A DNA stretch of 64,000 bases from Candidatus Methylacidithermus pantelleriae (lineage in GTDB: Bacteria; Verrucomicrobiota; Verrucomicrobiia; Methylacidiphilales; Methylacidiphilaceae): NCBI RefSeq assembly GCF_905250085.1, contig NZ_CAJNOB010000045.1:1-64000 (forward strand). Direction: 5' to 3'. Shown one piece after another: positions 2,041 to 12,267 of this stretch (positions are counted from its first letter, which is position 1; every line of letters begins with the position of its first letter). The notes under the pieces are model-generated. The model did not search any database and was not told where the DNA came from. It was given only the letters and a program-made list of their open reading frames with translations. The translations under genes were made by a program, and so were the position numbers.

Positions 2041-2490
2041 CTACTCCCGGAGGAAACGCATAAGAAACACCTTGATGGCGGAGCTTTCCACACATCGAAT
2101 TTCGGGGAGAAGCGGGCTGGGGGTCTGTCCTTTTTCGCTCCTCTCTGAGGGGAGCTCGACTAGCAAGTCCTCCAACACAGACAACCTCCCTTGACGACAG
2201 GTTTCCACAAGCTCAGCGAACGACACGGGCTTACCCAGAATCACCACCAGGGCTTGATCCAGCGCGGAGAGGTAAGCGGCCATATCCCCAAGACGCAAGT
2301 GCTCATCTGGGCTTGTCTCGATACGGGAAAGGCTCGCCTGACTTGTTCCCAATCGGGCTGCTAGCTGTCGTTGAGTGAGTCCGGCTTGGCGTCTCAAGAA
2401 GGAAAACGCTTTACCAATCCGGGTATTGGCTTTTTGGGTGCACCCGTTACGGGATCTGTCGGCTTTTTTTCTTGCCGGCTTCTTCTTCAT
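2041..2490 (-). CDS. XRE-family HTH transcriptional regulator
   Basis: A 149-residue protein. After a Lys/Arg-rich N-terminus (MKKKPARKKADRSR) comes a classic Cro/C1-type helix-turn-helix at about residues 26-80, with the signature AGLTQRQLAARLGTSQASLSRIE. The region after it is acidic/leucine-rich (residues 95-125) and is not a domain I recognise. Regulators of this size often act as antitoxins of HigBA-type pairs, and I looked for a RelE/HigB-like frame upstream (2500-2750, minus strand) but found only stop-interrupted frames. It therefore looks like a solitary regulator. The ATG at 2490 starts a Lys-rich leader; a start further in is possible. Target unknown. Confidence 0.75.
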   Translation of the reverse strand: MKKKPARKKADRSRNGCTQKANTRIGKAFSFLRRQAGLTQRQLAARLGTSQASLSRIETSPDEHLRLGDMAAYLSALDQALVVILGKPVSFAELVETCRQGRLSVLEDLLVELPSERSEKGQTPSPLLPEIRCVESSAIKVFLMRFLRE

Positions 2491-2746
2491 GAATTCGCCG
2501 CCATTTTACGGTGGTTTCGCTGAGCCTAGGAAAAGCCCCAAGGTTTTTGTCACCGCCACGGATCCAGCCAGCGGGCCGCCCGCTCATCGCGGAGCTTCCT
2601 TGTCCCACTGGCTGGTTTACGGCGTGGAGGTCACCCGTAAAGAGTCTTGGTCTCTTCCCTATCGTTTGAGGTTGTACCTATGGTCCATTCCGCTCAGAAA
2701 CCTTTTGCCTAGGTGCACACTTTACTTCTTCGACGAGGATCGCGGT

Positions 2747-4567
2747 TTATAAGCCTTTCTGGAGTGGCGTAAGAATGGCTAGCCATTGTTCCACGTGCGT
2801 AGGAAGTTTTCCCGACCCCACGAGTTTAAGGGTTTCCCTCAACCAGCCCTGCATAGGGACCGGGATCGTTAATACCCCTTGTCCTCCGAAACCGTTATAA
2901 GCTTGAATCTGGCTATCCTGAGTATCGGCCAATAGAACCTTTCCAGCGATCTCTAGCCGATCCAAGTCGACGACAGTAAGGGCGTTAGAAAATTTGCTAG
3001 CTACATAGGCATAATATCCTCCGCCTTTCTTAAAGCCGTACTCCACCCCGTGCACACCCGGCTCGGCCGGCAGCTGTTTGAGGACGCGATTGGTTTTTGT
3101 GTCGACGATCGTGATGGTTTGGCTCAAGGTGTTGGCGGTTACGACATACTTACCATCAGGGCTTACTGGCGTTTGAATGGGCAAAAGTCCGTAAGCGGGC
3201 CCGTTTACTTTTCCGGTTAGCGGGTCGTAGTCCGCAGCGAGGTCAATGTCTTCGACCTTTCTTTTCGCCTCCACATCAATGACAGACAAGGTGGAAACCT
3301 TCGGAGGAGTACCCAGAAAATTCGCGATATAGGCGCGTTTGCCATCGGGCGTCATTCCAACGGCAATTGGGATCACTGCTCCAATCGGGATCTCGGTAAC
3401 CTTCTCACTGTCCAGCTCAACGACGGATACGCTGCCCGCCAGGGCATTAGGGGTGATGAGCCACTTCCCGTCATCGCTAAGCCAGTGTCCGTGCGGGCCT
3501 GTGTGGGGACCGGTAGGGATGGCTCCCATAGGGCTGGGGTTGGCGCCAGGGGAAAGCTTCACAACCCTCTCTTCCCCATTGATGGCCACATACAGGGTGT
3601 CAGTCCCCGGTCTTGTCATAACGTGCGAGGGCGAATTACCAACGTGGATTACGCTGGTGATGTTACCCTTTTGCCGATCAAACACCTGCATTCGCTTGTC
3701 GAACCACTCGGTTTGGTAGATGTATTGGTAGGCTACATCCGTCCACATATTGTGAGGGTGATTCAGGTTGGTGGGGATCCCCTTGACCTTTTTCAGAATC
3801 TTCCAGGTAGTGGTGTCTAACTCCGTTGCCGAGCCAAACTTTGTCTTGCCTGAGATTTTCTCAAACTGGGTGTCGACCCAAACCTCCCCGACGCCTGGGA
3901 CAGGGGGTGAGAAAAGCTTGTTTGAGGCAGAAAAACTTAAGGTTCGTAGGGAGAACGTTTTTCCTCCAGCTCTGACCGGGATATCCGGAAGAGTAACGTC
4001 CCATGTCGGCTTCCGGTAGTCGCGCCAAAGGCTTGGTGTGGTGGCGACAAAAAAGGTGCGCAGGAGCTTTTTGGCTAGATCGCTTGTTACGGGAATCTTG
4101 GCGCCGGTCAGAAGCTCCCACTGGGAGCCTAGATCTAGACCGTCCGTGGCAGGGTCATCCACGATGACGGCACCAAACATGTAGGGATGAACCTTGCAGG
4201 TAAAAACGTAGAGGCCGGGTTCCGTTAGCTGAACCGTCACGCTACTGGAGGATGGCTTTTCCTGGTCTACTGGGACTCCTTTCGCTCCAACGGGCCAGAG
4301 CAGGCTGGTAATGGTGTGCTCGGTGTTTGTGTCGGTCATCTTGATAAGGACCGCTTCCCCTGGCTTTATAACTGCCAAGGCGTCGCCGCGAACCGGGTTT
4401 TTGAACCAAGTGCCAGGCTCGTCGGTCATTTCGAGGGTCGCTGTGGGAAGAATCCCTGCTTGGCTCAAGATGGCTTCTTCGCCTTGTTGGCCGGAGGAGC
4501 GGGCGAGCGGCAAAAAGAGCATCCAGGACAAGAATAAGGAAAATCGTGTGAAGGCAGATTTTTTCAT
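2747..4567 (-). CDS. Exported cupredoxin / YVTN beta-propeller protein
   Basis: A 606-residue exported protein. Residues 1-27 form a signal peptide (basic start, hydrophobic LFLSWMLFLPLA). Residues about 45-140 are a cupredoxin fold with a plausible type 1 copper site: His84 and a C-x2-H-x2-M loop (Cys124, His127, Met130). The rest is a beta-propeller of YVTN/cytochrome-d1-like repeats, with recurrent blades of the type SPDGKYVVTAN, TPDGKRAYIANF and VVDLDRLE. I see no haem-binding CxxCH. It lies 34 bp downstream of the multicopper oxidase gene on the same strand, so the two are probably co-transcribed, and an electron-carrier or scaffold role for the oxidase is a reasonable inference. The exact substrate is unknown. 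The ATG start fits the signal peptide. Confidence 0.8.
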   Translation of the reverse strand: MKKSAFTRFSLFLSWMLFLPLARSSGQQGEEAILSQAGILPTATLEMTDEPGTWFKNPVRGDALAVIKPGEAVLIKMTDTNTEHTITSLLWPVGAKGVPVDQEKPSSSSVTVQLTEPGLYVFTCKVHPYMFGAVIVDDPATDGLDLGSQWELLTGAKIPVTSDLAKKLLRTFFVATTPSLWRDYRKPTWDVTLPDIPVRAGGKTFSLRTLSFSASNKLFSPPVPGVGEVWVDTQFEKISGKTKFGSATELDTTTWKILKKVKGIPTNLNHPHNMWTDVAYQYIYQTEWFDKRMQVFDRQKGNITSVIHVGNSPSHVMTRPGTDTLYVAINGEERVVKLSPGANPSPMGAIPTGPHTGPHGHWLSDDGKWLITPNALAGSVSVVELDSEKVTEIPIGAVIPIAVGMTPDGKRAYIANFLGTPPKVSTLSVIDVEAKRKVEDIDLAADYDPLTGKVNGPAYGLLPIQTPVSPDGKYVVTANTLSQTITIVDTKTNRVLKQLPAEPGVHGVEYGFKKGGGYYAYVASKFSNALTVVDLDRLEIAGKVLLADTQDSQIQAYNGFGGQGVLTIPVPMQGWLRETLKLVGSGKLPTHVEQWLAILTPLQKGL

Positions 4568-4601
4568 GGTGGCTTCCTTTCGGTGGAGAATTAACGACGA
4601 A

Positions 4602-5558
4602 CTAAGGAATCACGCGGAATTTCCCCATCATTCCGCTTTGCATGTGTTGGACGACGTGGCAGTGGTAGTGCCAGTATCCTGGGCCTACACCTTCTCCAGC
4701 TTTCACCACGAAACTGGTACGACTCACCGGGCCAATGACGACGGTATCTACAATGGCTTGGGTGCCCGGATCCAGCCACCGGTGACCATGAAGGTGGAAG
4801 GTGTGGAACGCTGTTCCGAGGCCAAGGACGTGGAAACGGACAAGATCCCCTAGTTTAGCTCCAAACATGGGGTTGGTCCATAACGGGACTTCCCGGTGGA
4901 CAATATGATTTAACTCCTGGCCCCAAATCGTGGTTTCGTGCATCCATACGATGAACTCCCGCTTGATCTGGGAAAGATCCACTTGGGTAATTTGTCCATC
5001 GATCAAGGCAGCAATTTTGTTGCCTTTTGGATTGACGATAACGGTGCCAAAAAGGCCCTTATCCTCGGCTCCAACCATAGGGTCTCCAAATGCGTGATCG
5101 TGGTACGGCCAAGTCCCGGCAGTGCCGAGGGCAGCATCCCATTCATAGGTGTAAGGCTTCCCTGGGTAAGCGACTTGGTCTTGGACCCCGTTGAGCATTT
5201 TCGTTGTGCCGTCGCTGGGGAACTTATAGTGGACTCCATGAACGTGGATGCTGACTGGGTCATGGGAGCCCTCAATGCCGTGTTCCAGGGTGACCTCGGC
5301 TTTGTCGCCCTCCTGGAGGACAAGGGTGGGGCCGGGGATCGTGGGACCTTTGGCATAGAGGGAGGTTAGGTCACGAGTTTTGCCATTTTCTTCCATGAGG
5401 TGACGTTCCATCTGGTAAGCGAGTTGGCCGGAAGGCATTCGCGCCGCCTTGAGGGTAATGCGGTGGAAAGCTGCGAAGAGGGGTGGAGCGCCCCCCAGGC
5501 CACATAGCGTGATCCAAAGGAACCCTGCAAGGACGCAACGGAAGGGGATGGGCTTCAT
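4602..5558 (-). CDS. Two-domain multicopper oxidase (small-laccase type, T1 copper in domain 2)
   Basis: A 318-residue periplasmic protein with a signal peptide. It carries all four multicopper oxidase histidine motifs: H-V-H (His105/107), H-D-H (His153/155), H-x2-H-x-H (His252/255/257) and H-C-H-x3-H-x4-M (His299, Cys300, His301, His305, Met310). Domain 1 has no Cys in its copper motif (GTWPYHDHAFG), so the only type 1 copper is in domain 2, as in two-domain small laccases that trimerise; this distinguishes it from NirK nitrite reductase, where the T1 Cys is in domain 1. Expected activity: one-electron oxidation of a donor coupled to O2 reduction. I start at the ATG at 5558; a TTG at 5567 in the same frame is less likely. 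It heads an operon with the cupredoxin/propeller gene and is divergent from the SufR-like regulator. Confidence 0.82.
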   Translation of the reverse strand: MKPIPFRCVLAGFLWITLCGLGGAPPLFAAFHRITLKAARMPSGQLAYQMERHLMEENGKTRDLTSLYAKGPTIPGPTLVLQEGDKAEVTLEHGIEGSHDPVSIHVHGVHYKFPSDGTTKMLNGVQDQVAYPGKPYTYEWDAALGTAGTWPYHDHAFGDPMVGAEDKGLFGTVIVNPKGNKIAALIDGQITQVDLSQIKREFIVWMHETTIWGQELNHIVHREVPLWTNPMFGAKLGDLVRFHVLGLGTAFHTFHLHGHRWLDPGTQAIVDTVVIGPVSRTSFVVKAGEGVGPGYWHYHCHVVQHMQSGMMGKFRVIP

Positions 5559-5587
5559 GGTGGGCAAAGTGTTCTAAAAAAATGAAA

Positions 5588-5597
5588 CTTTGTAAAG
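5588..5597. promoter_or_regulatory. Near-palindrome in the divergent oxidase/regulator intergenic region
   Basis: The roughly 90 bp between the oxidase and the regulator is AT-rich and holds the near-palindrome CTTTGTAAAG, a possible operator or core-promoter element. It does not match the CAAC-N6-GTTG boxes described for SufR. This is a weak call based only on symmetry and position. Confidence 0.2.
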
Positions 5598-5648
5598 AAT
5601 AAAATTGATAAACTTGATTTTTTTCCGCCTCTGGAACCCAATCCATCT

Positions 5649-6305
5649 ATGGAAAACCTATTCGCCCTTCGAAGCCGCCAAGCTGGTATCCTCGGAAGGT
5701 TATTGCAAAAAAAAGGAGGTCTTACGATGGACCAGCTGGCCAGAGAACTAGGAATTTCCAAGGCGGCCGTGGGACAACACCTTATCGCCCTGGAACGAGA
5801 CGGGTTGGTCGCCCGCAGCGAGCTAGTCAAAACTCGGGGTAGACCTAGCCATCTCTACGTGCTAACCGAAAGTGGTCTCCATGTCTTCCCCAAGCATTAC
5901 GATTGGTTTGCTCGCCTGCTCCTAGAACACTACCTGAAGAGTTTTGGCTCCGAATCGACCCAAAAAATTCTCTACCAGCTGGGCCAGAAACTCGCCGAGA
6001 ATTTTTCTGCGCGCCTGGCAGGGAAAAAAGACAACGAGCGTCTCCAGGAAGTCGTGGCCATTATGAGCGAGCTAGGGTACGAAGCCGAGCTTGTGGCTGA
6101 TGCCGATCCCCCTTTTATCCGGGCTTTTAACTGCATTTATCATCATTTGGCAAAAGAGAACCCAGAGGTCTGCTTTCTAGACCTAGGTCTTCTGGATGCG
6201 CTCCTGGGCCGTGTGGAACATCGCGAGTGCATGGTGCGAGGCGGGCTGTGCTGCGCCTTTTGCCCTCTGGGATCGAATACCAGGCGAGCCTTTGGTTGCG
6301 CCTAG
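5649..6305 (+). CDS. SufR-like winged-HTH regulator with C-terminal cysteine cluster
   Basis: A 218-residue regulator. Residues about 12-75 form a winged helix-turn-helix of the DeoR/ArsR-like type found in SufR (MDQLARELGISKAAVGQHL, then a basic wing KTRGRPSHLYVLT). The C-terminal region has the cysteine pattern typical of SufR-type Fe-S sensors: NC-IYHHLA, E-V-C-F, R-E-C-M-V-R-G-G-L-C-C-A-F-C. Family knowledge suggests a 4Fe-4S cluster that responds to iron, oxidants or NO. It is transcribed divergently from the laccase-type oxidase operon, which makes that operon the obvious target, and there is no suf operon in the window. So the regulated process is likely copper/oxidative or nitrosative rather than Fe-S assembly. 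This is inference. Confidence 0.75.
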   Translation: MENLFALRSRQAGILGRLLQKKGGLTMDQLARELGISKAAVGQHLIALERDGLVARSELVKTRGRPSHLYVLTESGLHVFPKHYDWFARLLLEHYLKSFGSESTQKILYQLGQKLAENFSARLAGKKDNERLQEVVAIMSELGYEAELVADADPPFIRAFNCIYHHLAKENPEVCFLDLGLLDALLGRVEHRECMVRGGLCCAFCPLGSNTRRAFGCA

Positions 6306-7086
6306 CCGATGCTCAACGCCAGCAACGCTTTTCCCTAACGGCGGTGGACTTCCCTTGGTAAGGTTAGTCTCTGAGCTAGTTCTCGGCCCATAAGAGAGGG
6401 CTTTCTGGGTTGCAGGAGCACGTTGGGATGGGTTTTCCTTTGAGGCCACCACAGTGGCAGGACCGCAACTCTTTATGGCTCAGCCTCTGCCAAAGGGTAT
6501 CAGAGTTTGAAGAGCGAAGCGATGCCACGATGGCTTTCGTAAAATGAGCTAGCTTGTTAGCCCAAACTCCCCAGTCTTTCTTGGGACCTCACTCTCCGTT
6601 ACGAGGCAAGAATATGCAGCTTAGGCGATTTGAGAAACCTTACCATACTGCTTGGCCAGCTTGTCCTGGTAGAACGGTCCGGGCCAGCCTAGTGAACCGT
6701 TCCTAAAACCCTAGACAATCGTTCCCCTGTCAGGGAGGATGGTCCGGGACGCCGGCCGGACAGTGCTGCCGACGATTTGCGTGCTGGGATTCCGCTGGCA
6801 AAGCCCGGATAGCGCCCAGTCTCACGTTTTCGAGGAAAGAGGTGCGGGAGGTTGTCCATTGCCTGCCGACTGCTTATACGCTGCTTACGCCTCTTGAAGT
6901 CTTTTCCGAACCCCCGTTATAGACACGACCATGCATGCTTCTCCCATTGCTTGCGGCTAGGGCGAAGGTGACATGACCCCCATTGCGGAGTAGATACGAC
7001 TGTCTCTGGCACGGATTAGATGTTCAAAGAGACCGAATGGTTTCCGGGCGAGAGCACAAGACCGCGCTCTAGCTAGACCTTGTGGC
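6306..7086. other. Gene-free stretch, 0.8 kb
   Basis: Only short shadow frames on both strands. I see no RNA gene, no repeat and no protein I recognise. It separates the regulator from a decayed IS607-type element. Confidence 0.5.
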
Positions 7087-7169
7087 ATGATGGCGCGCGT
7101 AATTGACTGCGCCGATGAGAGACGTGTAGACCCAGTCGACTTCGATCATTTCGACTGCGGCAGCAAAAG

Positions 7170-8310
7170 AAGCCGACTTCACCATCGCGATCGCTTCAGC
7201 TCAGGCGAAGGAAGAGAGCGGGCGAGTCCGAACGGGATCCACCGACTCAAGCTCAAGCTTTTTCTTGCGCAAATCCCCTCGCTCGATGACAAGCGCCTTA
7301 CCCGATTGAGCATACCCCCGGGCAATTTCTTTCCACGCATCACCAAGGATCGCTTTCGTTTGCTCCTCGTTCTTGCCATAGAGATTCAATTGGATCCCGC
7401 GGATTCTCACGCGATTGCCCAAGCCGCCCGTTTGGGCCAAAGCGAGACGATACCTCGTTCGTGTCGATGCCGACCGCTCCGGCAAGGCGGCGAATCAGCA
7501 GGGAAACGGCTTCGCGCCTCGACGCTTGGCAAACACCCGCGACCCCTTGCGCTCCCGCACAAAGCCGTAGCTTTACCGCGGATCCCTCCCGCTTCCAGAC
7601 GAGTTTCCGAGGCTTGTTGTCCCGGTCACGATCCAGCTGGCAGTTAGTGCCTGGAGGATCGCCTCCTGGCCGTGGGCGAAGCGCATGCCCGTAAGAACCA
7701 GATATTGGCTCGCGCTCCCCCATCCATCCGGCAACCATAACTGCAGCCGAAGGCCGCCGTCCGAGGCGACTACGGCTTGGCAGGACTGGTTGCCGGCGGC
7801 CTCGTCCTTCGACCCCAGCACACAGAACGGGCTCCCTCGCTGCGCCTGCCAATCCCTCTTCCGGTCCGCATGGTTGACCTACCCGTTTTCTTCCCATGAA
7901 AACTTTTTACGGGAAGATGCGGCGGCAACCGAAACAGAGACCCACCGGATCGGCGAGGACCGCGTCAAGCTTGCTCGGAAGGATAGCCAGCCGCCGCTTT
8001 TTTGATCAAAACCGTTCGATCGCGCCCTTTTCTCCTCAAGGTCGCAGATGACCTCTTCCCAGTTTCCGAATTTCTTCCCTAGCTTTTCCATCAGAACTAG
8101 GACCGCCGTTCGCCAATCGAAGCGATCTTTCCTTCGAGCTTGGACGGGCAGGGTATAAAACTCTTGGACGGTAAGACTAAACCGCGGCAGCCAGGATCGC
8201 TTAATTTTCTTCCGTGAAACGCCAGCACGCATCTGCACGAAAGGGCTCTGCTGCGCTCCTGCTCGGGCGTCACCCGCAACTGCGTCGGGTTAGGGAAAAC
8301 AGCGAGCTTG
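7170..8310 (-). pseudogene. tnpB: TnpB-like IS605/IS607 accessory protein, decayed
   Basis: Fragments in three frames on the minus strand match successive parts of the TnpB-related accessory protein: an N-terminal coiled region (8238-7990), a middle part with the hallmark LGSKDEAAGNQSC and a following LVLTGMRFAHGQEAILQAL (7820-7640), the RuvC-I-like RLAGAVGIDTNE (about 7490), and a C-terminal piece with LNLYGKNEEQTKAILGDAW and KALVIERGDLRKKKLE (7390-7250). Several frameshifts separate them, so no functional nuclease can be made. TnpB homologues are RNA-guided nucleases related to the ancestors of Cas12. Confidence 0.65.
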
Positions 8311-8311
8311 C

Positions 8312-8880
8312 TCATGCGATGGTTTCGAGCGCCTTCTTGGCACGGCTCTGCGCGGATTTCTTCTCGTAAAGCCTGGCACACAATGAAACGATCACCTCCT
8401 GCAGGTCGCGCACGATATCGTCGGTCATCCCATTCGGCCCGCCACCAGGATCGATCGACTCTAGCCGGCCAATCCCGCTTACCGGTACTCGAAACCGATA
8501 CGGATCAGTTGGAGGCGGTGCTCGACCAGGACAGCGCCGACCTTCGGATGACAAACCTGCCCAACGAGCTCTTTGCGATCGCCGTTCATCCCCGAGCCGA
8601 CCACCTGACGGCCTTGACGATCCGCAGCCGTTTGCTTGAGAGTAAACTGAGAGAACCTAAACCAGCTTGCTGTCTCAATCCGCTTTTTTCACCGGCGCTT
8701 GCACACCCGCGCGTAGAAGGCCACCCCATCGGGTTGCGAAGAGTCCGCATGAACAATGAGCTTCCCAGTTGGCAACGATTCTCCGGGAACGGGCAAACGC
8801 CCCCCTTTACATCCGCCAAGCCGTCCTGCACCCAACACCCTGCCGCTTGGCCCACGTACTCACATTCAGAGAAATACTGC
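8312..8880 (-). pseudogene. tnpA: IS607-family serine recombinase TnpA, decayed
   Basis: At the 5' side, reading the minus strand from about 8880, the frame gives SLNVSTWAKRQGVGCRTAWRM and then a stop; this is the MerR-like N-terminus of IS607 TnpA (consensus WAKxxGVxYxTAxRW). The middle retains VLVEHRLQLIRIGFEYR (family motif VEHRDRLTRFGFEY), again followed by a stop, and the C-terminus reads MTDDIVRDLQEVIVSLCARLY with a basic tail, all typical of the family. Several frameshifts/stops make it non-functional. Confidence 0.7.
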
Positions 8881-9039
8881 CATGAACAACCTTAGGTGTC
8901 TTGTTTGGCTGTTAGCCACCCTAGAAGGAGCTTTCCTCAAAAGCCGGATCGATACGCGCGGCGACTTAAAAACGATGAAAAAACTCCCGCCTCCTCGGGG
9001 TCTTTGACGCGGCCACCCTGCAAGGTTTTAGAGGCTTTT

Positions 9040-12000
9040 CTACGGAGCACGCTGGCTCCAAGAGTTTTCTTGGGGGCTCTCGTCCGTTTCAACCCCAGCT
9101 AGAACGGGAGTGGTTGGTGGCTCCTGCGGGACTCGAGGCGGACCGGACCGATAGGCCCACCGGTAAAGAATCGGCACAAGAAAGAGACTCAGAACCGTTG
9201 CCGACAGAATCCCTCCGATCACAACAATCGCCAAAGGGCGTTGGACATCCGCCCCCGGGCCGTGGGAGATGGCCATCGGTACGAAACCTAAGCTGGCGAC
9301 AAGAGCAGCAATGGCAATCGGGCGAAATTGGGAAAAACAGGCTTCGCAAAGCGTTTCTCGAACCGGTTTGTGGGAAGACCAGATCTGTGTGTTAAAAGCC
9401 CGAACGAGAACAATGGCCCCTAAAACCGCGATTCCCGACACGGCGATGAAGCCGATTGCGGCTGAAATACTAAACGGGAGACCGCGTAATTTTAAAGCAA
9501 ATACCCCACCGGTAGCGGCGAAGGGGACTGAAGCAAGAACCAAGGTTGCCTGTCGAAAGCTACGAAACGCAGCATAGAGGAGGAGGTAGATCAGGATTAA
9601 AGCTAGAGGAACCGCAACACGCAACCGTTCCTTGGCAGCTTGCAAATTTTCAAACTGGCCCCCGAACGTAATCCGGTACCCCTCAGGGAGTGAGAGCTGG
9701 GCGCGCACCTTGGCTTCCGCTTCTCTGACGAAGCCTTCCAGGTCACGGCCTCGGATATTAACGAGTACTGCGCGACGTCGTTCCCAGTTTTCCCGGGCGA
9801 TCGATCTGGGACGGTCTTCGACTCGAGCCTGAGCAATCTGCCCCAGATGAAGCAGCCGCCCCTCCTCATTCCGAACGGGAAGGTCCCAGATCCATTTCCA
9901 ATGACTCCGGACTGAATCGGGCAAGCGCACCGCAACCCAGTATCGTCGCCATCCCTCGATCATGAGTCCTACGTCCTTTCCTAATAAACCAATGGTAACG
10001 GCGTCGTTAAGCTCTGAGGCGTGAACATGGTACTGCGCCATTGCCTTTCGGTCGGGCACAAACTCAAGGGTTGGGGACCAGCCAGCCGATTCGACCGCCA
10101 CGTCCGCTGCCCCTGGGACGGAGGAGACAATCTCTTGGATTCTTTTGGCTAGGCGTTCCAAAACATCATAGTCTGGACCAAAAATCTTAATGGAGACGTC
10201 CGCACGAATCCCCATGAGCATTTCATTGAACCGGTTTTCGATCGGTTGAGAAAAGAGGAACTTTTGGCCTGGAGCGTGTAGGGATAAAAGACGAAAGATC
10301 TCCAGTGATAATTCATCTTTGGAAATCGGTCTTCCGTTTTTCTTGCGCCATCGGTCTGGTGACTTAAGCATCACGTAGAGGTCGCTCTCGTTGGGGCTCG
10401 CAGGATCGGTGGGAGTGTCTGACATCCCGATCCGAGAATACACATAGTCCACTTCCGGAACTCTTTGTAACAGCAAGCGTTCTGCCCTTTCTTCCCAGTC
10501 TAAGGAGGAAGAGAGTGCCATGGTTCGGGTCCTATAAAACGAAACCACAAAAGAACCTTCATCGAGCTTTGGAACAAAATCCGCCCCTAATCCTCGAAAG
10601 ACATGGAAGCTCACTGCAAGGAGAGCCAGGGACACAACCAGAAGAATAGCACCGTGCCCGAGAGACCACGGGAGAGACTTTCTGTACAGAACCTCCATGA
10701 GACGCATCAAAGGAGGGGCGCTTTCCCTCAAGCGCCCAACAAAAACGTAGGATGCTGCTGCAGGGACGTAGGTAAAACTCAAAAGCAGAGAACCAACTAA
10801 AGCGAGAATCACTGTCGTTGCCATTGGACGAAACATTTTCCCTTCTACGCCTGTAAGGCTTAGGATGGGAAAATAGACCACCGTGATAATGATAACCGCG
10901 AAAAACACCGCTGGGGCAGCTTGAATGGAGGCTTTTTCAATAACGTGACGACGCTCATAAGCTTCAAGGGATCTTCCCCTATGGGACTGAAGGTGAACAA
11001 GCTCCCGCAAGATGGCCTCGACCATCACGACCGCTCCATCCACGATGAGCCCAAAGTCAAGGGCCCCTAAGCTCATGAGATTGCCGGATACTCCTAGAGG
11101 TCCCATGAGGGAGGTCGCAAACAAGAAGGCAAGCGGGATCACGGAGGCTACCAAAAGAGCAGCCCGGACATTCCCTAGGGTAAGGAAGAGCACAGCCGCC
11201 ACTAGCAGAGCCCCTTCCGTAAGGTTTTGTCGGACGGTTGCAATCGTTCGTTCTACGACTTGAGATCGGTCGTAGAGCAGGCGAATAACGACACCTTTCG
11301 GAAGAAGGGTTTTCTGGATTTCCTGAAGTTTCTCCCGAACCTGACGGGCAACCTCTCGGCCATTTTCGCCCATCAGCATAAGGACGGTCCCTAAAACGGC
11401 TTCTCGCCCATTTTCTGTCGCGGCCCCAGTTCGTACCCGTGCACCGATGCCGACTTTGCCGATATCCCGGACGAGAATGGTTCGTGCACCTGGTACGATC
11501 CGGATCGGCAGGTTTTCAATTTCCTGCACGTTGAGAACTTTTCCGAGCGAACGGACGACCACTTGTTCTCCGGCCTGTTCGAGAATCCCGCCGCCGGCAT
11601 TCTGCAAGTTTTCGCTCACCGCATCAGCGACTTCCTTAAGCGTGACTCCTGCTCGGAAAAGCTTAGGGGGATCCGGCTCGATCAGGAGGAGCTTTTCATA
11701 TCCGCCCGTGGTGTTGACGTCCGCGACACCTCGGACAGAACGAACTGCGGGTCGGACCAAGTATTGTTGAATGAGCTTTAGTTCCATGAGCTGTTCCAAG
11801 GGACTGGCAGGACGGTTGGGTGCATCCTCGGAAAAAGACAGAGAATAATAGACAATTTCGCCCAGTCCGGTGCTTATGGGTGCCATCTCGGGCGACAAAC
11901 CCTCAGGAAGAAAATCCTTCGCCGTAGCCAACCTTTCGTTTACGAGCTGGCGACAGCGGTAAATGTTGCTTTTATCTGTGAAAATCAGGGTAACCTGTGA

Positions 12001-12267
12001 AAGGCCGAACTTGGAAAGGGATCGCATCTCCACCAAATTCGGCAGACCGGCCATGGCAATTTCCATGGGAATCGTGACGAGCTTTTCGATTTCCTCTGGG
12101 CCAAGCGATGCAACCGGGGTGTTAATTTGGACTTGCACATTACTGATGTCTGGAACTGCATCAATCGGGAGAGAACCAAGACGCCACAGCCCTAGAGTAA
12201 GAAGTGCCGTGGCTCCGACCACGACAAAGAAGCGCTCTTGAATAGAAAAGCGAATCAGTCCAGCCAT
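9040..12267 (-). CDS. czcA: Heavy-metal efflux RND transporter (CzcA/CusA family)
   Basis: 1075 residues, full length for a heavy-metal efflux RND pump. It has the two-fold repeat: TM1 (residues about 12-30), a large periplasmic porter domain with VPDISNVQVQINT at about residues 38-50, and TM helices 2-6 with the HME signature DFGLIVDGAVVMVE, holding the proton-relay acids Asp404, Asp410 and Glu417. The second half is similar, with late TMs at about 870-1040. It pumps divalent or monovalent metal ions across the outer membrane by proton antiport, together with a membrane-fusion protein and an outer-membrane channel. No CusB or CusC partner lies next to it. The SRIGMSDTPTDPASPNESD segment is closer to CzcA than CusA, but the metal cannot be settled from this. 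Confidence 0.85.
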   Translation of the reverse strand: MAGLIRFSIQERFFVVVGATALLTLGLWRLGSLPIDAVPDISNVQVQINTPVASLGPEEIEKLVTIPMEIAMAGLPNLVEMRSLSKFGLSQVTLIFTDKSNIYRCRQLVNERLATAKDFLPEGLSPEMAPISTGLGEIVYYSLSFSEDAPNRPASPLEQLMELKLIQQYLVRPAVRSVRGVADVNTTGGYEKLLLIEPDPPKLFRAGVTLKEVADAVSENLQNAGGGILEQAGEQVVVRSLGKVLNVQEIENLPIRIVPGARTILVRDIGKVGIGARVRTGAATENGREAVLGTVLMLMGENGREVARQVREKLQEIQKTLLPKGVVIRLLYDRSQVVERTIATVRQNLTEGALLVAAVLFLTLGNVRAALLVASVIPLAFLFATSLMGPLGVSGNLMSLGALDFGLIVDGAVVMVEAILRELVHLQSHRGRSLEAYERRHVIEKASIQAAPAVFFAVIIITVVYFPILSLTGVEGKMFRPMATTVILALVGSLLLSFTYVPAAASYVFVGRLRESAPPLMRLMEVLYRKSLPWSLGHGAILLVVSLALLAVSFHVFRGLGADFVPKLDEGSFVVSFYRTRTMALSSSLDWEERAERLLLQRVPEVDYVYSRIGMSDTPTDPASPNESDLYVMLKSPDRWRKKNGRPISKDELSLEIFRLLSLHAPGQKFLFSQPIENRFNEMLMGIRADVSIKIFGPDYDVLERLAKRIQEIVSSVPGAADVAVESAGWSPTLEFVPDRKAMAQYHVHASELNDAVTIGLLGKDVGLMIEGWRRYWVAVRLPDSVRSHWKWIWDLPVRNEEGRLLHLGQIAQARVEDRPRSIARENWERRRAVLVNIRGRDLEGFVREAEAKVRAQLSLPEGYRITFGGQFENLQAAKERLRVAVPLALILIYLLLYAAFRSFRQATLVLASVPFAATGGVFALKLRGLPFSISAAIGFIAVSGIAVLGAIVLVRAFNTQIWSSHKPVRETLCEACFSQFRPIAIAALVASLGFVPMAISHGPGADVQRPLAIVVIGGILSATVLSLFLVPILYRWAYRSGPPRVPQEPPTTPVLAGVETDESPQENSWSQRAP

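Follow-up and report, generated by a model that had tools for sequence, protein, structure and literature searches.

A multicopper oxidase encoded beside a cupredoxin-propeller protein in microbes with a copper membrane monooxygenase

In two-domain laccases, each trinuclear copper site is formed where domain 1 of a subunit meets domain 2 of its neighbor. The small laccases of type B (PDB 4n8u, 3tas, 3cg8) have two cupredoxin domains, a type 1 (T1) copper in domain 2 and trinuclear ligands from two domains, traits that they share with a multicopper oxidase (MCO) encoded in a stretch of 64,000 nucleotides of Candidatus Methylacidithermus pantelleriae (contig NZ_CAJNOB010000045.1, positions 1 to 64,000), here named the window. 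The MCO gene stands with that of a cupredoxin-propeller protein (CPP) and opposite a divergent gene for a SufR-like regulator (Table 1). This three-gene observation, with its reading frames, domains and layout, is confirmed, and the locus is far beyond chance, with near homologues in identical order in many genomes. The genome bearing the window (2.46 Mb) has a match to subunit B of copper membrane monooxygenase (CuMMO; PF04744, 351 bits), and the host is therefore a CuMMO organism, probably a verrucomicrobial methanotroph. An earlier note on this DNA had read the three genes as a copper-dependent unit responding to redox state or nitric oxide (NO); the observation was right and the interpretation is partly supported, while the link to CuMMO was absent from it.

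The MCO shows the domains Cu-oxidase_3 (54.3 bits, cut-off 21) and Cu-oxidase_2 (49.5 bits, cut-off 20.4), and among solved structures it is most closely related to the two-domain small laccases. All 12 of the copper-ligand positions checked are intact, with the T1 ligands (H, C, H, M) confined to domain 2 and the trinuclear histidines contributed by both domains. Judged by domains and ligands, it is a type-B two-domain MCO, in line with the two-domain laccase of the earlier note; an in-frame ATG at 5558 is an alternative start. The same note had joined a T1 cupredoxin to a YVTN propeller in the second protein, and this was borne out by profile matches of CPP to a YncE/YVTN propeller and a pseudoazurin/amicyanin-like cupredoxin, as well as by the T1 motif, which is amicyanin-like in its four ligands. 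The AlphaFold model of CPP is confident (pLDDT 89, pTM 0.88) and has seven blades, the nearest solved folds including YVTN, NirN/NirF/NirS-type and hydrazine synthase beta propellers. Five propeller histidines are kept in 57-58 of 58 aligned rows, along with Q465 and Q563, and these residues and the T1 ligands are unchanged even in a Chloroflexota relative. In the model, the five histidines lie at or adjoining the starts of the innermost strands of four blades, where, to judge from conservation and predicted fold, they may bind a metal. A weak archaeal CPP-like relative of 719 aa (L108, G469; 3168-5324) has neither H361 nor Q563, and an NHL propeller gene lies downstream of it. Upstream of MCO-CPP in Methylocystis (L023, 486-1616, and relatives) is a gene for a YncE-like propeller with histidines at its blade starts (HNH, PRH, MPH, GSHG).

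Scanning one genome per species gave 60 CPP loci, nearly all from genomes named as methanotrophs or ammonia oxidizers. MCO directly precedes CPP in almost every locus of methanotrophs and ammonia-oxidizing bacteria (AOB); the pair is common to gamma methanotrophs, alpha methanotrophs and the window verrucomicrobium, with fused or split forms in most Nitrosomonadaceae and some ammonia-oxidizing archaea. The earlier note had said that genes not conserved together elsewhere would refute it; on this point the wide adjacency of MCO and CPP speaks in its favor. In several gamma methanotrophs MCO also faces a divergent SufR-like gene; the complete trio thus recurs, but only there and in the window. 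In Methylocystis, the place of the SufR-like gene upstream of MCO-CPP is taken by a sigma-70-family factor together with a protein of 88 aa that bears a His/Cys motif and is presumably an anti-sigma factor; in AOB loci it is taken by a response regulator whose C terminus is of LuxR/NarL type, as assigned from its sequence. The tree places the window CPP within a Methylothermaceae group (SH-aLRT 98), and no full-length CPP was present in the searched relatives of the host's family; together these make horizontal gain of the locus from a gammaproteobacterial methanotroph likely. Viral carriage was rejected, as the viral contigs searched contained no relative. On two Methylocystis rosea plasmids (L111, NZ_CP044330.1; L112, NZ_CP034088.1), both mobilizable, MCO-CPP has NnrS nearby and CPP carries no annotation beyond hypothetical protein; NZ_CP044330.1 also carries CusA/CzcA efflux genes. 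A metagenome-assembled genome (MAG) named Methyloversatilis universalis (L027) shows the neighbor genes of Methylocaldum L026 and is probably represented here by a misbinned contig.

The distribution of CPP tracks CuMMO. Full-length CPP (a score above ~290 bits, the next class reaching at most 91 bits) occurs in ~25 of the 201 genomes from the order to which M. buryatense belongs, 82/120 Nitrosomonadaceae, 2/251 Chloroflexota and, apart from the centre genome and one AOB, none of 396 Pseudomonadota; at the threshold used, CPP was detected in 24/200 Nitrososphaeria, five of them weak matches. CuMMO subunit B was present in 23/36 CPP genomes of one set, many of them draft MAGs, in 42/47 of a second set and in all 20 chromosome-level CPP genomes checked, compared with 0/14 control genomes, and in one of the two CPP-bearing Chloroflexota (G799). 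The presence of CPP therefore implies that of CuMMO. The converse does not hold: CuMMO-positive, CPP-negative genomes exist among Nitrosomonadaceae (G272, G273, G274, G293) and mark CPP as an accessory of CuMMO life, not a core part; a strict requirement of CPP for ammonia oxidation is rejected by such genomes. The Chloroflexota genome G799 has two CPPs (L102/L103), one of them with an MCO+cupredoxin gene directly downstream.

Four architectures were found. Methanotrophs have a separate complete MCO and CPP; in some archaea (L066, L084, L085, L099, L100) the complete MCO is fused to CPP; AOB and some archaea combine a free MCO-A with an MCO-B-CPP fusion; and a stand-alone CPP also occurs in AOB and some archaea. 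Wherever A and B occur together (34/34 loci), MCO-A keeps the four domain-1 histidines and has lost the T1 and trinuclear ligands of domain 2, whereas MCO-B keeps the domain-2 ligands and has lost those of domain 1; the single free MCO of methanotrophs keeps both sets (18/18 loci). Since the trinuclear site of two-domain laccases is shared between subunits, MCO-A and MCO-B should form a working site only jointly, and the split ligands of AOB would agree with the interdomain trinuclear copper of homotrimeric type-B oxidases. The complete fusions and the complementary ligand loss argue that MCO is coupled to CPP and provide strong evidence, at the level of sequence, that CPP belongs to an MCO complex. 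They also lend support to the passage of electrons between cupredoxin protein and oxidase suggested in the earlier note, which would run from CPP to MCO. No common partner was recognized among the neighbors of stand-alone AOB CPPs. One archaeal stand-alone CPP (L097, G479; 2451-3653) lies beside a Rieske/NAD-binding oxidoreductase.

Nitric-oxide genes adjoin MCO-CPP in some relatives, with norB and nnrS found in Methylocystis and in one gamma methanotroph. More specifically, four Methylocystis loci read sigma factor, 88-aa protein, MCO, CPP, folE, norB (NorB domain plus COX1), SirB2 and NnrS, and the two M. rosea plasmids match the annotated parts of this order, the norB interval being blank in their gene table. 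The order in G127 is NnrS, CPP-MCO, SufR-like gene and NorB, and that in G210 is SufR-like gene, CPP lacking an MCO, and NorB with another SufR-like gene at its side; this second gene (L114, 16004-16684) is ~5 kb from the SufR-like/CPP pair. It has been reported that ammonia oxidizers have an NO oxidase without an assigned protein (PMC6967387), that mHAO is concluded to stop at NO, and that the plasmid of Methylocystis SC2 bearing multicopper oxidases responsive to NH4+ also carries norB and nosZ (PMC9600857).

The regulator of the window scores 78.5 bits against SufR_cyano (TIGR02702), under the equivalog cut-off of 178.8, and is thus SufR-like and not SufR; as a true SufR it is rejected on this cut-off. 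The cysteine cluster that the earlier note described in the divergent regulator is present as four invariant cysteines. NO or redox sensing by the regulator is plausible from these cysteines and from genes of its family that adjoin norB in other methanotrophs. The TTGACAAA(G) element, -35-like, lies upstream of MCO in several relatives; a palindromic operator common to the intergenic regions of regulator homologues was looked for and not found, this element being the only one shared.

Table 1. Features of the locus in window coordinates; MCO ligand residues are counted from the TTG start
Feature	Position	Strand	Length	Remarks
CPP gene	2747..4567	-	606 aa	Signal peptide, N-terminal T1 copper cupredoxin, seven-bladed YVTN propeller
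CPP propeller histidines H272, H315, H359, H361, H506	3050..3754	-		Candidate metal site, putative
CPP T1 copper loop C124-x2-H127-x2-M130	4178..4198	-		H84 at 4316-4318; invariant in 58 sequences
MCO gene	4602..5567	-	321 aa	Type-B two-domain multicopper oxidase, signal peptide, TTG start at 5567
MCO copper-ligand span	4629..5246	-		Domain 1: H108, H110, H156, H158; domain 2: H255, H258, H260, H302, C303, H304, H308, M313
Divergent intergenic region	5568..5648			TTTACAAA at 5589-5596 (-) matches the TTGACAAA(G) element
Regulator gene	5649..6305	+	218 aa	Divergent SufR-like winged-helix protein
Regulator Cys cluster C162-x12-C175-x18-C194-x7-C202	6132..6254	+		Four cysteines invariant among aligned homologues

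In the window, the locus is flanked by an AcrB/CusA-family RND transporter gene (9040-12267) and by a gene for a small HTH_3 protein (2041-2490), and positions 1-2000 and 6300-9000 are long stretches without recognizable genes.

Building on the gene pair, its ligands and fold, its distribution, the fusions, the complementary split sites and the norB/nnrS neighbors in relatives, we propose, with a probability of roughly 0.4, that MCO and CPP form one periplasmic copper oxidase of CuMMO microbes, which would oxidize a reactive nitrogen intermediate, NO first, with O2 as acceptor. CPP would oxidize a small substrate, probably at a metal held by the five propeller histidines, and electrons would pass from the T1 copper of CPP to that of MCO and on to the trinuclear site, which would reduce O2. 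The substrate would most likely be an intermediate of CuMMO-driven ammonia oxidation, with NO, oxidized to nitrite, as the first candidate, and the SufR-like regulator may switch on MCO-CPP through a cysteine-bound Fe-S or redox center. Several points weigh against this proposal. NO genes stand beside MCO-CPP in a few lineages only; the window genome has a NorB-domain match below the Pfam cut-off and no match to HAO; stand-alone AOB CPPs have no adjacent MCO; and AOB with CuMMO but no CPP, such as G272 and G273, show that it is not needed for ammonia oxidation as such. Unrelated YVTN propellers have some single histidines at blade starts, though not the full CPP set, and the plasmid multicopper oxidases of Methylocystis SC2 that rise at high NH4+ (PMC9600857) may be proteins other than MCO and CPP. 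Taken singly, NO oxidation is the likeliest activity, with hydroxylamine oxidation and copper handling as serious alternatives. A further-reaching reading, that MCO-CPP is a previously undescribed copper complex in which a His-ligated propeller metal feeds an MCO, in places split, and oxidizes NO or hydroxylamine to nitrite, we hold to be somewhat doubtful.

It is unlikely, although it deserves weight, that CPP oxidizes CuMMO-made hydroxylamine with MCO as the electron outlet, replacing or working alongside heme HAO. The window genome would suit this role, being CuMMO-positive without an HAO-family match, while HAO is present in four members of the host's family and full-length CPP in none of the relatives searched; in its favor, too, ammonia-oxidizing archaea have no known HAO (PMC9038741). 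AOB use HAO and carry CPP as well, full-length CPP occurs in a minority of the sampled Nitrososphaeria only, and the neighbors found are norB and nnrS, all of which speak against this role.

Copper handling, with MCO as a Cu(I) oxidase and CPP as a copper-binding partner protecting or supplying the copper-hungry CuMMO cell, appears equally improbable. The MCO superfamily takes in CueO/CopA, the association with CuMMO is strict, M. rosea has CusA/CzcA-type efflux genes no more than ~20 kb away and the RND gene of the window is of the AcrB family; however, CPP-less methanotrophs exist, the T1 ligands of CPP resemble an electron-transfer site, the neighbors in relatives are NO genes and the regulators are not of CueR/CsoR type.

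Very improbable is an N2O reductase-like CPP, with a propeller copper cluster fed by the T1 cupredoxin and acting after NorB: the propeller and cupredoxin parallel NosZ, the clade III match is weak, norB is a neighbor and archaea reduce N2O by unidentified means (PMC11408285), but the ligands are those of T1 and not CuA, the domain order appears reversed, five and not seven histidines are invariant, no nos accessory genes were seen near CPP and the partner looks O2-reducing. An ordinary laccase beside a structural YVTN protein, adjacent by chance or as cargo, is scarcely credible, because common as YVTN propellers are and horizontally acquired as the locus looks, the fusions and the 34/34 complementary ligand loss already contradict it and the genes are conserved across phyla.

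The enzyme that converts NO to nitrite in ammonia oxidizers is not identified, and losses of NO and N2O from nitrifiers and methanotrophs bear on climate. If the proposed NO oxidation is true, MCO-CPP would be a candidate for this missing step of nitrification in the lineages that carry it. The question is directly testable, as a copper complex tracking CuMMO, with NO genes beside it in some methanotrophs, occurs in the cultured Methylotuvimicrobium buryatense 5G. A split MCO with half of the copper ligands on each polypeptide would also be an unusual route to an obligate hetero-oligomeric oxidase. The component families are already known; in the literature searched, which covered few subscription journals or preprints, there was no description of the MCO-CPP pair, its role, its restriction to CuMMO or the split MCO, and the last two and the pair itself appear undescribed there.

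The solved propellers most similar to CPP in sequence, which also rank among its nearest folds, are the hydrazine synthase beta subunit (5c2v) and an archaeal YVTN surface-layer protein (1l0q); they lack a cupredoxin, their partners differ and, to our knowledge, neither has such a histidine set. L-NosZ, the clade III lactonase-type N2O reductase (NF052460), resembles CPP in joining a propeller to a cupredoxin, with weak propeller similarity; however, CPP carries T1 ligands, and its propeller aligns to the N-terminal part of the L-NosZ model, so that the cupredoxin order appears reversed. CPP was rejected as L-NosZ (57 bits against a cut-off of 700, with 0/6 genomes above it) and as canonical NosZ, on its single-Cys T1 loop and five invariant propeller histidines. 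SufR and MsvR share with the regulator a winged helix and a C-terminal Cys-rich domain, but it scores under both equivalog cut-offs, and in the loci read, with no genome-wide suf scan made, its family adjoins MCO-CPP or norB and not suf genes. In contrast to the small laccases, the MCO is here paired with or fused to CPP, and AOB and some soil archaea divide the trinuclear ligands over two polypeptides. Nitrosocyanin, a candidate NO oxidase of AOB (PMC6967387), is likewise a copper protein proposed for NO oxidation, but it is reported from AOB genomes only, whereas CPP spans AOB, archaea and methanotrophs.

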